From NCBI GenBank assembly GCA_011524915.1, contig WTJH01000013.1, positions 1 to 44,791 on the forward strand: a stretch of DNA of 44,791 nucleotides. The letters are read 5' to 3'. The notes beneath the pieces are model-generated. The model was not told where the DNA came from, did no database searches, and was given only the letters and a program-made list of their open reading frames with translations. This stretch comes from Flavobacteriales bacterium. GTDB taxonomy: Bacteria > Bacteroidota > Bacteroidia > Flavobacteriales > Flavobacteriaceae. The position numbers and the translations under genes were made by a program. Numbering within the stretch: position 1 is the stretch's first letter; the number at the start of each line of letters is the position of its first letter. Of the stretch, positions 31,413 to 36,519 are shown one piece after another.

Positions 31413-32495
31413 TTAAGCATTCATGATGCTTTCCTGATGATTGATGGATTCTTGGTGAATCGCTTTAAAAAAGCGAAGAACAAATTCTTCACTTAGGCCA
31501 CGCTCCTCCCCTTCGAGGATCATTTTTCCTAAGATTTCGTTCCATCGCTTGCTTTGTAAAACAGACACATTGTTGTCTTTTTTAAGCTTTCCTATAGCTT
31601 CAGCTACTTGCATACGCTTACCAAGAGTATCTAAAAGAGATTGGTCTGCAGCATCGATTTCAGCTCTCATTTTCTTGAGTGCATTTTGATATTCTTCTGC
31701 ATCGGTAGTTTCGACGCGAACACTCCAATCCTTCATATATTGAATTAGTGTTTCGGGAGTAATTTGCTGGGAAGCATCACTCCATGCTTTATCTGGATTC
31801 CAGTGAGACTCTACCATGAGACCGTCGAAATTCAAATCTAAAGCCGCCTGACTCACGTCAAAGATCAAATCGCGACGACCAGCAATATGTGAGGGATCAC
31901 AAATCAATGGTAGATCTGGGAAACGGTTCTGGAGTTCAATGGCCAATTGCCATTCGGGTTTATTACGGTATTTCGTTTTTTCGTAACTCGAAAACCCTCT
32001 GTGAATTACACCGATATTTTTGATGTCAGCTGTATAAATCCGTTCTACACCTCCCAACCAAAGCGATAGGTCTGGATTCACAGGATTCTTAATTAAGACA
32101 ACTTTATCTGTTCCCTTCAGGGCATCGGCGATCTCTTGTACAATAAATGGACTTACTGTGGATCGAGCTCCAATCCATAAAATGTCAATATCGTGCTCTA
32201 AGGCCAGTTGAACATGGTTTGCATTGGCGACCTCTGTGGCAATTTTCATTCCCGTTTCTTCCTTCACTCGTTGCAGCCACTTGAGACCAATGGCCCCAAC
32301 TCCTTCGAAATTTCCGGGTCGTGTTCGGGGTTTCCAAATTCCAGCTCGGAAAGCATTTACGTCACTATCCTTGAGCTGATGAGCTATTTTGAGTACTTGT
32401 TCTTCTGTTTCAGCACTACAAGGTCCTGCAATTACTAAGGGATGATCCAGATTTAAATCATCCAACCATTTGCGCATTTGTTTTTGGTTTTCCAT
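31413..32495 (-). CDS. Bifunctional DAHP synthase / chorismate mutase
   Basis: Fuses the first step of the shikimate pathway (erythrose-4-P + PEP to DAHP) to the chorismate-to-prephenate step. The 360-aa protein begins with a KDO8P/DAHP synthase barrel carrying VIAGPCSAE (21-29), FRAGIWKPRTRPG (49-61) and ICDPSHIAGRRD. An AroQ-type chorismate mutase covers about residues 262-350 (MRAEIDAADQSLLDTLGKRMQVAEAIG pattern). It is the last gene of the aromatic operon, 23 bases after tyrA. In this architecture the mutase part often serves as the feedback sensor for the synthase (family knowledge). Confidence 0.93.
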   Translation of the reverse strand: MENQKQMRKWLDDLNLDHPLVIAGPCSAETEEQVLKIAHQLKDSDVNAFRAGIWKPRTRPGNFEGVGAIGLKWLQRVKEETGMKIATEVANANHVQLALEHDIDILWIGARSTVSPFIVQEIADALKGTDKVVLIKNPVNPDLSLWLGGVERIYTADIKNIGVIHRGFSSYEKTKYRNKPEWQLAIELQNRFPDLPLICDPSHIAGRRDLIFDVSQAALDLNFDGLMVESHWNPDKAWSDASQQITPETLIQYMKDWSVRVETTDAEEYQNALKKMRAEIDAADQSLLDTLGKRMQVAEAIGKLKKDNNVSVLQSKRWNEILGKMILEGEERGLSEEFVLRFFKAIHQESINHQESIMNA

Positions 32496-32518: not shown

Positions 32519-33379
32519 TTAATTTCCATTTTGTGCCATTCCTTCTAAAATGGGCTTTATTTGGTTCGCTTTTTTCATCAGCTCCAAGAGCTGATCCGTA
32601 TCTTCAGCTTCCAAAGCATCGGCAAAGGTATTTAAATGTCCGATATAGGCATAAAGAGCTTTGAGTACATGTCTTTTATTTTGTTGAAAAATAGGAGCCC
32701 ACATAGCTGCTGAGCTTTTAGCCAAGCGAACTGTAGAAGCAAATCCACTTCCTGCCAACTCGACTATAGTCTCTGGATTTTTTTCCATATCCAATACGGT
32801 TTGCCCCAACATAAATGAACTGACATGCGACAGATGCGACACATAAGCCACATGTAAATCATGGGCTGCTGCATCCATATAAATTAGTCGCATATGCATG
32901 GCTTCCAACAACTCTATTCCTTTCTCTCTTGAGCTAGCTGCAGTTTTTTCAGCATCGCATAGGATGGTTATCTTCCCCTCGAACAAGCCTTCAAAAGCAG
33001 CTTGGGGACCAGAAAATTCTGTTCCTGCAATGGGGTGGGCAGCTAAAAATTGATCCCGTCGTGGATGTTGAGCTACAGCCTCCACTATGGCTGCTTTGGT
33101 AGAACCCATATCGATCACCAGAGTGCTACTAGAAACTCCCTCTAAAACTTGAGGAAGTAGCTTCACTGTAGCATCTACAGGGATGGCCAGAAATAGAACA
33201 TCCATCTGGGACCATTGATCTTTACTCAGTTCGCAGTCCACCAAATTCAACTCCAAAGCCTGTTGCAAGTGGAGTGAAGATTTGTCTGCTCCATAGAGTT
33301 GAACGGATGGTCTGTTCTTTCGTAAGGAAAGAGCAACAGAGCCACCGATTAAACCTAAACCAATAACACCAATTTTCAT
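32519..33379 (-). CDS. tyrA: Prephenate dehydrogenase
   Basis: An NAD(P)-dependent oxidative decarboxylase making 4-hydroxyphenylpyruvate for tyrosine. The 286-aa product has the Rossmann motif GLGLIGGSVAL at residues 7-17, DMGSTKAAI near 91-99, and HPIAGTEFSGP at about 114-124 containing the catalytic His. No ACT domain or chorismate mutase is fused. It overlaps the aminotransferase gene by four bases (ATGA). Confidence 0.94.
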   Translation of the reverse strand: MKIGVIGLGLIGGSVALSLRKNRPSVQLYGADKSSLHLQQALELNLVDCELSKDQWSQMDVLFLAIPVDATVKLLPQVLEGVSSSTLVIDMGSTKAAIVEAVAQHPRRDQFLAAHPIAGTEFSGPQAAFEGLFEGKITILCDAEKTAASSREKGIELLEAMHMRLIYMDAAAHDLHVAYVSHLSHVSSFMLGQTVLDMEKNPETIVELAGSGFASTVRLAKSSAAMWAPIFQQNKRHVLKALYAYIGHLNTFADALEAEDTDQLLELMKKANQIKPILEGMAQNGN

Positions 33380-34533
33380 GAGCGAAGACGGTTTATGGCT
33401 TCATCTATCAAAGCCTCAGAAACACAAAGTGAAAAACGAACATATCCCTGTCCTTGACTTCCAAAAATAGTTCCTGGTGTAATAAATATATGGTGCTTAT
33501 GCAGCAACTCATCAATAAACGTTTCGGGATCAGGATGCTTTTCGTTTAGGCGAGCCCAAACAAACATCCCCACGGCTTGTGGGTCATATGACAGCCCCAA
33601 AACCTCGGCCAGTTGCCAAACTTTAGCTCTCCGTTTGCGATAAATATCATTGAGTTGAGCATACCAATTTTCGTCCAATTGAAGGGCGGCTATAGCTCCT
33701 TTTTGCAATCCATAAAACATCCCCGAATCCATATTGCTTTTAACTTTCAACACGGCATTGATCAGCGGTTGAGCTCCACAAACAAATCCAACACGCCAAC
33801 CCGCCATATTGGAACTTTTACTCAAAGAATTCAATTCAAGAACATGTCCTTGAAGATTATCAGGACTTAAAATACTCTGGGGGTCTTCGTTTAAGATGAA
33901 ACTGTAGGGGTTATCGTTGACCAAAACAATTCCTCTTTGAGAAGTCCATTCCACTAATTTTTGATAGGTTTCTTTTTGGTTGAGGGCTCCTGTGGGCATA
34001 TGCGGATAATTGACCCACATCAGTTTAACTCGAGTGGTATCCATAGCCTCTAGGGCATCAAAATTGGGCTGCCAATTTTGAGAAGCTTCAAGCTCATAAA
34101 ATACCGGTTCTGCTTCTACAATTTTGGTGACCGAAGCATAGGTAGGATAGCCCGGATTGGGGATAAGGACCTGATCTCCGGGATTGAGTAGAGCCATCGA
34201 AATATGCATGATTCCCTCCTTGGATCCCATAAGAGGCAATATTTGCTGATTCGGATCCAAGCCAACCCCATAAAAGCGCTGATAAAAATCTGCTGCTGCT
34301 TGGCGTAGTTCGGGAAGCCCCTGATAACTCTGATATTGATGACTGTTTTCTTGTCCAAGACTTTGCTGTAAAGCTTCAATTACTTGCGGGTGCGGCGCTA
34401 GATCTGGACTTCCAATTCCCATATTCAAAATACGATGCCCCTGTTCCCGCATTTGAGCCACCTCTCGAAGTTTTTTCGAAAAATAATATTCCTGTACCTG
34501 TTCTAGGCGTTGTGCAAAAACGAGCTTAGTCAT
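33376..34533 (-). CDS. Aminotransferase of the aromatic amino acid operon
   Basis: A 385-aa class I/II PLP aminotransferase resembling LL-diaminopimelate/aspartate-type enzymes. The PLP lysine is K239 in NSLSKSSNMAGWRVGF. The usual NPNNPTG loop is changed to VNYPHMPTGA near 173-182, as in several DapL-like relatives. Its place between pheA and tyrA suggests it aminates phenylpyruvate and hydroxyphenylpyruvate to Phe and Tyr; that is inferred from context. Its start overlaps the pheA end by eight bases, indicating coupled translation. Confidence 0.87.
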   Translation of the reverse strand: MTKLVFAQRLEQVQEYYFSKKLREVAQMREQGHRILNMGIGSPDLAPHPQVIEALQQSLGQENSHQYQSYQGLPELRQAAADFYQRFYGVGLDPNQQILPLMGSKEGIMHISMALLNPGDQVLIPNPGYPTYASVTKIVEAEPVFYELEASQNWQPNFDALEAMDTTRVKLMWVNYPHMPTGALNQKETYQKLVEWTSQRGIVLVNDNPYSFILNEDPQSILSPDNLQGHVLELNSLSKSSNMAGWRVGFVCGAQPLINAVLKVKSNMDSGMFYGLQKGAIAALQLDENWYAQLNDIYRKRRAKVWQLAEVLGLSYDPQAVGMFVWARLNEKHPDPETFIDELLHKHHIFITPGTIFGSQGQGYVRFSLCVSEALIDEAINRLRS

Positions 34534-35359
34534 GAATCTGAGAATAAGTTCCTAAAATTTTAAAACTGGTTGCCATAAGAGATAATATGGACTCTGCCTT
34601 ATGAAAGGCCGAGGGCTCTTCAAAGGTGACGTCGATAAAAAATGCATACTTCCCAGGAGTTTCAATTACCGGAAGTGATTGAATCTTGGTCAAATTCATT
34701 TGGCAATCGCTTAATACATTAAGTATAGTTGCCAAACTACCACGCTTATGATCTAGGGTTAATTTAAGGGAGGCTTTGTTGAATTTTTCGGGACTATCGG
34801 CTCGGTCCTTAGCAACAACCACAAAACGAGTCACATTGTTTTTAATGGTTTGAATGGTTGTGGCTAGCACTTCTAATCCGTTCAGCTTAGCGGCTTCAGC
34901 AGAAGCAATAGCTGCGACTCCACTGAGAGATTTTTGAGCGATCTGCTGAGCTACAGCGGCTGTGTCGTCAGCTTCAACCAAGCGGATATGCGGATATTGA
35001 GCCAAGAACTCCTGACACTGCAATAAAGCCATGGGATGGGAGCGCACCTCCTGAATATCGGCAATGGTTTGCCCGGAAAGACCCATGAATTGATGTTGAA
35101 CAGACAAATGGTATTCTCCGATGATTACGCCTTCCATCCGATCAATCAGTGCATAATTCGGCAGAATGGATCCCGCAATAGAATTTTCTAATGCCATAAC
35201 TGCAAAATCGCATCCCCCCTGAAAGAGCTCCTGTAATAACTGGTCGAAACGCATACATTCTAAAAATGAAGCCGTCTCCCCAAAACAAGCTCTTGCCACC
35301 TGATGGTGATACGATCCTTGAGCTCCTTGAATTCCGATAAGAGGTGTTTTTGTGTTCAT
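34526..35359 (-). CDS. pheA: Prephenate dehydratase with ACT domain
   Basis: Converts prephenate to phenylpyruvate for phenylalanine. The 277-aa protein has the dehydratase domain at residues 1-185, with catalytic TRF at 177-179 and DDTAAVAQQIA at 131-141, then an ACT domain at about 195-275. The ACT-domain ESRP motif needed for Phe sensing in other enzymes reads QSLP here. There is no fused chorismate mutase; that activity sits in the last gene of the operon. It is the first gene behind the leader-peptide attenuator. Confidence 0.95.
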   Translation of the reverse strand: MNTKTPLIGIQGAQGSYHHQVARACFGETASFLECMRFDQLLQELFQGGCDFAVMALENSIAGSILPNYALIDRMEGVIIGEYHLSVQHQFMGLSGQTIADIQEVRSHPMALLQCQEFLAQYPHIRLVEADDTAAVAQQIAQKSLSGVAAIASAEAAKLNGLEVLATTIQTIKNNVTRFVVVAKDRADSPEKFNKASLKLTLDHKRGSLATILNVLSDCQMNLTKIQSLPVIETPGKYAFFIDVTFEEPSAFHKAESILSLMATSFKILGTYSQIHD

Positions 35360-35367
35360 TAAACGCC

Positions 35368-35394
35368 AAAAAAAAAGTCTCGATTGATCGAGAC
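35368..35394 (-). terminator. Attenuator terminator before pheA
   Basis: The perfect eight-base stem GTCTCGAT / ATCGAGAC with a two-base minimal loop (35394-35377) is followed by nine T (35376-35368). Only eight bases separate the T tract from the pheA ATG, so the hairpin also covers the translation-initiation region. Confidence 0.85.
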
Positions 35395-35427
35395 TTGATT
35401 ATATATGTTTCATTACAAAGCCTCTCC

Positions 35428-35484
35428 TTAGCCTAAAGCAAAGAAATAAAAGTAGCTGTTGTAATATGTTGATTTTGAAATCAT
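35428..35484 (-). CDS. Tyr/Phe-rich leader peptide (18 aa)
   Basis: The ORF encodes MISKSTYYNSYFYFFALG and stops with TAA. Seven of nine consecutive codons (7-15) are Tyr or Phe: TAT TAC, then after Asn-Ser, TAC TTT TAT TTC TTT. It sits about 70 bases before pheA with an intrinsic terminator in between. A GTG directly before the ATG is in frame and could be an alternative start. It has no recognisable ribosome-binding site, which is normal for Bacteroidota. It is a regulatory ORF rather than a functional peptide. Confidence 0.75.
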   Translation of the reverse strand: MISKSTYYNSYFYFFALG

Positions 35485-35489
35485 CACTA

Positions 35490-35520
35490 CAAATGTAAAG
35501 GCTTGAATTGGATTACAAAA
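35490..35520 (-). promoter_or_regulatory. Promoter of the aromatic operon leader
   Basis: On the minus strand, TTTTG (35520-35516), an 18-base spacer and TACATTTG (35497-35490) match the Bacteroidota TTTG / TAnnTTTG promoter in both boxes. The predicted RNA start falls within a few bases of the leader ATG at 35484. Confidence 0.62.
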
Positions 35521-35610: not shown

Positions 35611-36519
35611 TTGGAACAGCCTCCCTTGCTCCGCATTTCGAATCTTTCGCGTTCATATTCAGACAAACAGGTGCTTAAAAACATCCATCTGGAACTATCT
35701 CCAGGTGAGATCGTTGGGTTTTTAGGGCCCAACGGTGCTGGGAAAACAACACTTATGAAAATTTTATCGGGATACGATAGTCAATGGAAGGGTGATGTAT
35801 TCTTGAACGGGCTAGATTTAGAAACCCATAGAAAGGCTATACAGGCACAAATTGGATATCTCCCCGAACACAATCCTTTGTATTTAGATTGGTATGTCAT
35901 GGAATATCTCAGGTTTATTGCTGACCTGAATAGTATCAAACATCCATCTTTAGATGCAATTATCCATCAAACGGGCTTACAAGACTACAGTGGATCAAAA
36001 ATAAGGACCCTCTCCAAGGGATATCGACAACGCCTGGGGATAGCCGCAGCCTTAGTAAACGATCCCAGTTTTCTTATTTTAGACGAACCCACCACAGGTC
36101 TAGATCCCAATCAGTTGGTAGAAATTCGAAAACTCATTCGAGAATTGGGGAGCTCCAAAACTATTTTATTGTCCACCCATATCCTTCAAGAAGTGGATGC
36201 CCTTTGCGACCGTGTAGTGGTGCTTCATCAAGGAGAAATTGTCATGGACGATTCTATGGAAAATCTCCGAAAACAAGAAACTCAAATTATTGAAGTGGCT
36301 TTTGACTATCGAGTAGAAACGGTTGCCCTATCCCAAATTCAGGGGGTAAAATCGGTTAAAAACACCTTCGATTTTGAATACGAAATAGAAGCGGACAGCC
36401 CTTTGGATCTCAGACCTATACTTTTTGATTTTTCCCATGACAATGGTCTAAAAATCTTAAAGCTTCAAAGAAAAAGTCAGCGGCTGGAACAACTCTTCGA
36501 ACGCCTGACTCAAGATTAA
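35611..36519 (+). CDS. gldA: GldA-like ABC transporter ATP-binding protein
   Basis: The ATP-binding subunit of an ABC-2-type transporter, most like GldA of the flavobacterial gliding-associated transporter. The 302-aa protein has Walker A GPNGAGKT (39-46), the signature LSKGYRQR (134-141), and Walker B FLILDEPTTGLDP with PNQLVEIRKLI behind it. LYLDWYVMEYL after the Q-loop is GldA-like, and the C-terminal domain is about 80 residues. The start is TTG at 35611. GldF and GldG partners are not adjacent, so the symbol rests on similarity only. Its stop overlaps the end of metF by four bases, convergently. A weak TATATTTA box lies about 16 bases upstream. Confidence 0.8.
   Translation: MEQPPLLRISNLSRSYSDKQVLKNIHLELSPGEIVGFLGPNGAGKTTLMKILSGYDSQWKGDVFLNGLDLETHRKAIQAQIGYLPEHNPLYLDWYVMEYLRFIADLNSIKHPSLDAIIHQTGLQDYSGSKIRTLSKGYRQRLGIAAALVNDPSFLILDEPTTGLDPNQLVEIRKLIRELGSSKTILLSTHILQEVDALCDRVVVLHQGEIVMDDSMENLRKQETQIIEVAFDYRVETVALSQIQGVKSVKNTFDFEYEIEADSPLDLRPILFDFSHDNGLKILKLQRKSQRLEQLFERLTQD

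Follow-up and report, generated by a model that had tools for sequence, protein, structure and literature searches.

How is the operon that begins with pheA controlled in the window, the whole 44,791-nucleotide stretch of Flavobacteriales DNA analysed here, and what is the role of the small reading frame rich in Tyr and Phe codons that precedes it? Most known cases of leader-peptide attenuation come from Proteobacteria and Actinobacteria, and in the E. coli pheL-pheA system a short ORF with aromatic codons lies before pheA, together with a terminator and a competing antiterminator. We propose, with a probability of roughly 0.93, that the operon, which runs pheA-aminotransferase-tyrA-DAHP synthase/chorismate mutase, is controlled by a ribosome-mediated transcription attenuator of the leader-peptide type. 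The feature in the window is real and, judging from sequence, highly probably functional.

The operon lies on the minus strand. Its first gene, pheA (34526..35359), encodes a prephenate dehydratase with an ACT domain; PRK11898, its best NCBIfam model, scored below the curated cut-off (E 5.9e-57), and Pfam PDT above its own. It is followed by genes for a PLP-dependent, presumably aromatic, aminotransferase (33376..34533), for prephenate dehydrogenase (tyrA, 32519..33379; NF006307, 362.6 bits, above cut-off) and for a DAHP synthase fused to chorismate mutase (31413..32495; PRK12595, E 1.1e-56, below the curated cut-off). DAHP synthase is the entry step for all three aromatic amino acids. The same order, with DAHP synthase as the fourth gene, occurs in loci L032-L035 of relatives, and the aminotransferase gene adjoins pheA on its 3' side in 29 of 29 relatives checked. 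A gldA-like gene upstream of the leader (35611-36519) has the opposite orientation and points away; the terminator described below is therefore not that gene's.

The leader ORF, MISKSTYYNSYFYFFALG (35428..35484, minus strand), read directly from the sequence, comprises 18 codons plus TAA, from the ATG at 35484-35482 to the stop codon at 35430-35428. Its predicted peptide, M I S K S T Y Y N S Y F Y F F A L G, includes the stretch YYNSYFYFF, in which seven of nine codons specify Tyr or Phe, as the first-pass annotation had stated. The predicted ORF is thus short and holds codons for the operon's end product, and the operon content fits these Phe and Tyr codons. The previously described layout, with the last Phe codon ahead of an antiterminator arm, also stood, except for the exact distance, which is 15 nt from the end of that codon instead of about 16 bases. 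Measured from where the last Phe codon begins, the arm starts 18 nt downstream, at the loose end of the range. The aromatic run by itself is unremarkable, with five consecutive Tyr/Phe codons found 42 times in the genome and the reversed pattern 44 times, and was dropped as evidence in its own right; it is position and conservation, not the run per se, that place the leader above chance.

Region 2 (35411..35424, minus strand) consists of the antiterminator arm GAGGCTT (35424-35418) and the 3' flank TGTAATG, and the arm can pair with AAGTCTC (35396-35390) over seven positions, including one G-U. The latter motif belongs to region 3, AAGTCTCGA (35388..35396, minus strand), which is the 5' arm of the terminator and common to the antiterminator. 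Region 4, TCGAGACTT (35375..35383, minus strand), forms the 3' arm, and a run of nine T (35368..35376, minus strand) completes the intrinsic terminator. The hairpin AAGTCTCGA-TCAA-TCGAGACTT (35396-35375) has 9 bp (8 if the outer A-T is not counted), and eight bases separate the T run from the pheA ATG (35359). The seven-position arm pairing with its one G-U, the perfect 8-bp terminator with nine T and its end eight bases before pheA had all been claimed in the first-pass annotation and were confirmed on the sequence. A further pairing had been missed: region 1, UAUUACAACAGCU (35454..35466, minus strand), lies within the aromatic codons and pairs in the MFE fold with region 2, the 3' flank included (35422-35411). 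As the leader codons can also pair with the antiterminator arm, the full classical scheme is present. The whole window leader folds at -27.3 kcal/mol, compared with -15.4 in dinucleotide shuffles (z = -4.0), and the MFE structure of the free window RNA combines the 1:2 pairing with the terminator, which would be the expected off state. The 1:2 duplex of the window is moderately better than in shuffles (z -1.4).

In the proposed mechanism, transcription would start next to the leader ATG and the ribosome would load at the 5' end. With both Phe-tRNA and Tyr-tRNA charged, the ribosome would reach the stop codon and cover region 2, upon which regions 3 and 4 would pair and RNA polymerase would stop at the T run, ahead of pheA. 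If either tRNA were uncharged, the ribosome would stall on the aromatic codons and cover region 1, leaving region 2 free to pair with region 3; the terminator would then be blocked and the operon transcribed. Without translation, regions 1 and 2 would pair and the terminator would form. From these elements we infer where transcription starts, that the ribosome stalls, that transcription terminates and that the switch responds to Phe and Tyr; the mechanism assumes that ribosome and RNA polymerase are closely coupled in this phylum.

The attenuator interpretation, first put forward for this locus alone, appears well supported by comparison with relatives. Our main sample comprised 134 pheA upstream regions of relatives, nearly all from one family, which is probably Flavobacteriaceae because three named loci with 49-50% identical pheA belong there. 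A Tyr/Phe-rich leader was found in 130 of these regions, 128 times complete and twice (L027, L101) cut by the end of the sequenced stretch taken, with the 3' part of the leader, the arm and the terminator visible. All 128 complete cases have an intrinsic terminator 3' of the leader, between it and the first gene. These terminators were picked by a simple hairpin-plus-T rule, which in L095 took an antiterminator-like fold; a later loop limit was meant to exclude such picks. At least six Tyr/Phe in nine residues of a short ATG ORF occurred in 127 of the 134 pheA upstream regions, against 0 of 60 hisG/trpE upstream regions and 0.4% of shuffled pheA regions. Across about 130 genera the reading frame, its ATG and stop and the aromatic codons have been preserved even as the bases vary, and codon choice is mixed, with both TAT/TAC and TTT/TTC in use. 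The upstream alignment proposed in the first-pass annotation as a check thus turned out as anticipated there, with the Tyr/Phe codons and both alternative pairings kept and the bases covarying. Four family members with pheA among the 134 regions (L079, L100, L115, L122) had no visible leader. In L079, several copies of a repeat of about 120 nt ending in GGCGGGATC lie upstream of pheA, apparently in place of the leader region.

Pairing and spacing were evaluated in 164 loci, 126 from the family set and 38 from a second sample. The mean 2:3 score was 17.3 within genomes and 13.0 +/- 0.2 when each genome received another genome's terminator arm (400 permutations, maximum 13.7); with one genome per distinct arm, the values were 17.8 and 12.9 (maximum 13.7). 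Regions 2 and 3 changed jointly, as in GAGAC/GTCTC, GGGACT/AGTCCC, AGGACT/AGTCCT, CCGGGTT/AACCCGG and AAGGCT/AGCCTT, and position-wise triples across regions 2, 3 and 4 kept both pairs, one position being G/C/G in 77 loci and A/U/A in 46. Region 2 was paired with region 3 in the MFE structure of 163 of 164 transcripts truncated after region 3, and the antiterminator (2:3) and the terminator (3:4) exclude each other. The 1:2 energy was -12.1 kcal/mol as observed and -8.8 +/- 0.2 kcal/mol with swapped partners over the 164 loci (150 permutations, lowest -9.4), and this protector pairing overlaps the control codons. Tested on the arm alone, 1:2 had given a mean z of 0.18 and 14 hits in 164; this arm-only null was set aside, as 86 of 164 loci fell below the 5th percentile once the region 2 flank was included, and the permutations also gave clear pairing. 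There is some circularity in taking the best duplex for each genome, which the permutations control, but the genomes are related, and the statistics leave this kinship out of account.

The geometry of the leader is consistent with ribosome stalling. Counted from the start of the last clustered aromatic codon, region 2 follows at a median of 14 nt (sd 2.3), and at 10-15 nt in 147 of the 164 loci. Toeprinting places the cover of a ribosome with a codon in its A site at about 12-13 nt from the first base of that codon, and the arm therefore begins just outside a ribosome stalled there. The stop codon is spaced more loosely from region 2 (sd 7.6), which a ribosome at the stop could still reach in 146 loci. 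By these spacings, a stalled ribosome would free region 2, whereas a ribosome at the stop would cover it. The placement of the arm after the stop codon, as originally described, applies to the window; in relatives, the arm usually lies within the end of the ORF.

A sigma-A promoter is predicted at 35490..35520 (minus strand), with TTTTG at 35520-35516 and, after 18 nt, the -7 box TACATTTG at 35497-35490. PMC9723704 gives TAnnTTTG at -12 to -5 as the sigma-A box of Flavobacterium psychrophilum. Since the box was placed accordingly, the predicted start in the window is at about 35485, adjoining the leader ATG (about 1 nt before it), and in most relatives the 5' end would precede that ATG by up to about 15 nt. 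TAnnTTNG was present at most 55 nt before this ATG in 145 of 167 loci, against 12% in shuffles, and in the 145 its distance to the ATG was most often 10 or 16-19 nt.

No Rfam family matched the window at gathering scores. The best weak match was RF01859 Phe_leader (full length, 30.7 bits, E 0.0014), below the cut-off of 55, and no match to this model was found in six relatives at E 0.05. T-box and riboswitch families had no match in the window or the relatives searched, and RF01692 Bacteroid-trp had none in the window or the pheA loci. The leader resembles the gammaproteobacterial Phe leader in the short aromatic-codon ORF before pheA and the terminator with a competing antiterminator, but here Tyr is mixed with Phe, often together with Trp, the operon adds tyrA and DAHP synthase, and the predicted transcription start adjoins the leader ATG. 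Bacteroid-trp, listed as cis-regulatory (PMC2864571), is likewise a leader-peptide RNA of the same phylum, but has Trp codons and belongs to another operon. Its model matches trpE leaders of the same family above cut-off (L238, 70.2 bits; L260, 61.0 bits), and leader-type attenuation in the phylum is therefore already known. PMC9723704 reports a conserved structured 5' region before pheA in F. psychrophilum, without Rfam match and present in other Flavobacteriaceae, another conserved 5' element before hisG, and strong hints that leader peptides attenuate amino-acid operons from upstream; its main text gives the pheA element no sequence, specificity or mechanism. This element is very probably the same as the window leader. 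A literature search that covered few subscription journals found no publication describing the aromatic leader. The first-pass annotation, which called leader attenuation best known from Proteobacteria, had mentioned neither RF01692 nor the pheA 5' element reported in PMC9723704; the classical-type switch had not been catalogued for this operon in this phylum.

Leaders of similar design precede other operons. Before hisG of the same genome, a His-run leader, MNMHHHSQQSLTAQAR, is followed by a GC-rich terminator (L231, reverse complement ~1241-1350; G000:C174), and a His-rich leader was seen in 29 of 30 family loci. Before trpE, MIQNKNKTWWWNATA and a terminator (L233 ~765-870; G000:C11) were found, with a Trp-run leader kept in 28 of 30 loci. 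The trpE leader of this genome had no match to the Bacteroid-trp model at E 0.05 and two relatives did, and the model may therefore be too narrow. In the stretches read, no leader was present before the homoserine dehydrogenase or ilvD genes of the genome.

An aromatic leader contains on average 5.2 codons for Phe, 3.6 for Tyr and 0.6 for Trp. Trp codons are found in 96 of 164 leaders (97 codons, 2.6% of residues), comprising 87 of 126 in the family set and 9 of 38 from the second sample. Most of them occupy one of two fixed positions, 4-5 or 9-10 codons ahead of the final aromatic codon; the window leader has none. Given these codons in many relatives, 'dual' specificity for Phe and Tyr may be too narrow for the family. 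It is possible, and we suggest it tentatively, that the leader senses Phe, Tyr and Trp across the family, with Trp tied to the operon's DAHP synthase, and that the window leader lost or never had its Trp codon. The frequency and fixed places of the codon argue for this, as does an operon ending with the enzyme of the first step to all three aromatics. However, there is usually one Trp codon per leader, which stands 4-10 codons ahead of the final aromatic one and would hence be a weaker stall site; it is absent in the window and present in just 9 of the 38 leaders of the second sample, and TGG may instead be retained for the 1:2 stem.

Terminator and alternative pairing alone would fit equally well a riboswitch, a T-box or a terminator bound by a protein, with the Tyr/Phe run as a by-product of a T-rich stretch. 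We consider this very improbable, since frame, ATG, stop and aromatic codons persist across the genera compared, synonymous Tyr and Phe codons are both used, the spacing from codons to arm is fixed, no Rfam riboswitch or T-box matched, and His-run and Trp-run leaders precede hisG and trpE. A chance combination of a T-rich ORF and a terminator without regulatory use, to which the many aromatic-codon runs in this genome might point, is next to negligible, being already refuted by the conservation against controls and by the permutation tests.

When order, class and phylum were sampled, the aromatic leader proved to extend to about 15 further families. It was present in f44, f45, f49, f53 and f55 of the same order, in f3, f4, f5, f8, f9 and f11 of the same class and in f16, f19, f28 and f34 of other classes, and hence in most sampled families of the order and class and in four beyond. 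The first-pass annotation had described a single Bacteroidota leader; the system is not limited to one family or class. No leader was found in the 0.6-Mb reduced genomes (f56), f2 and f52, those of f56 and f2 mostly having a divergent pheA, in sampled distant-pheA loci of f12, f13, f14, f17, f21, f23, f30 and f35, or in three f8 loci where pheA directly follows another gene, whose reading frame by eye resembles EPSP synthase. One f2 locus (L223) passed the leader filter without antiterminator pairing and was excluded from the pairing tests, and a protein-based contig scan yielded no more than 8 loci, of which four came from unrelated Clostridia and had no leader.

Nearly all sampled members of a large family retain the aromatic leader, as do many others. 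Its annotation can be automated, and together with the hisG and trpE leaders it indicates that attenuation is a standard control of amino-acid operons here. The pheA leader offers a natural test of transcription-translation coupling in the phylum and of how ribosomes initiate at very short 5' ends where Shine-Dalgarno pairing is absent. One might speculate, although we regard it as rather unlikely, that an ancient phylum-wide leader senses Tyr, Phe and, in most family members, Trp as well, with ribosomes loading on near-leaderless 5' ends without Shine-Dalgarno initiation; if true, this would, with the hisG and trpE leaders, imply close RNA polymerase-ribosome coupling in the phylum. In two of the 0.6-Mb genomes of f56 (L221, L222), pheA is kept and no leader was seen, as if attenuation had been lost with genome reduction; L221 still has an upstream TATATTTG box. 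Four families of other classes (L168-L171) have an unusually similar pheA accompanied by the leader, a hint that operon and attenuator may have been transferred horizontally as a unit.
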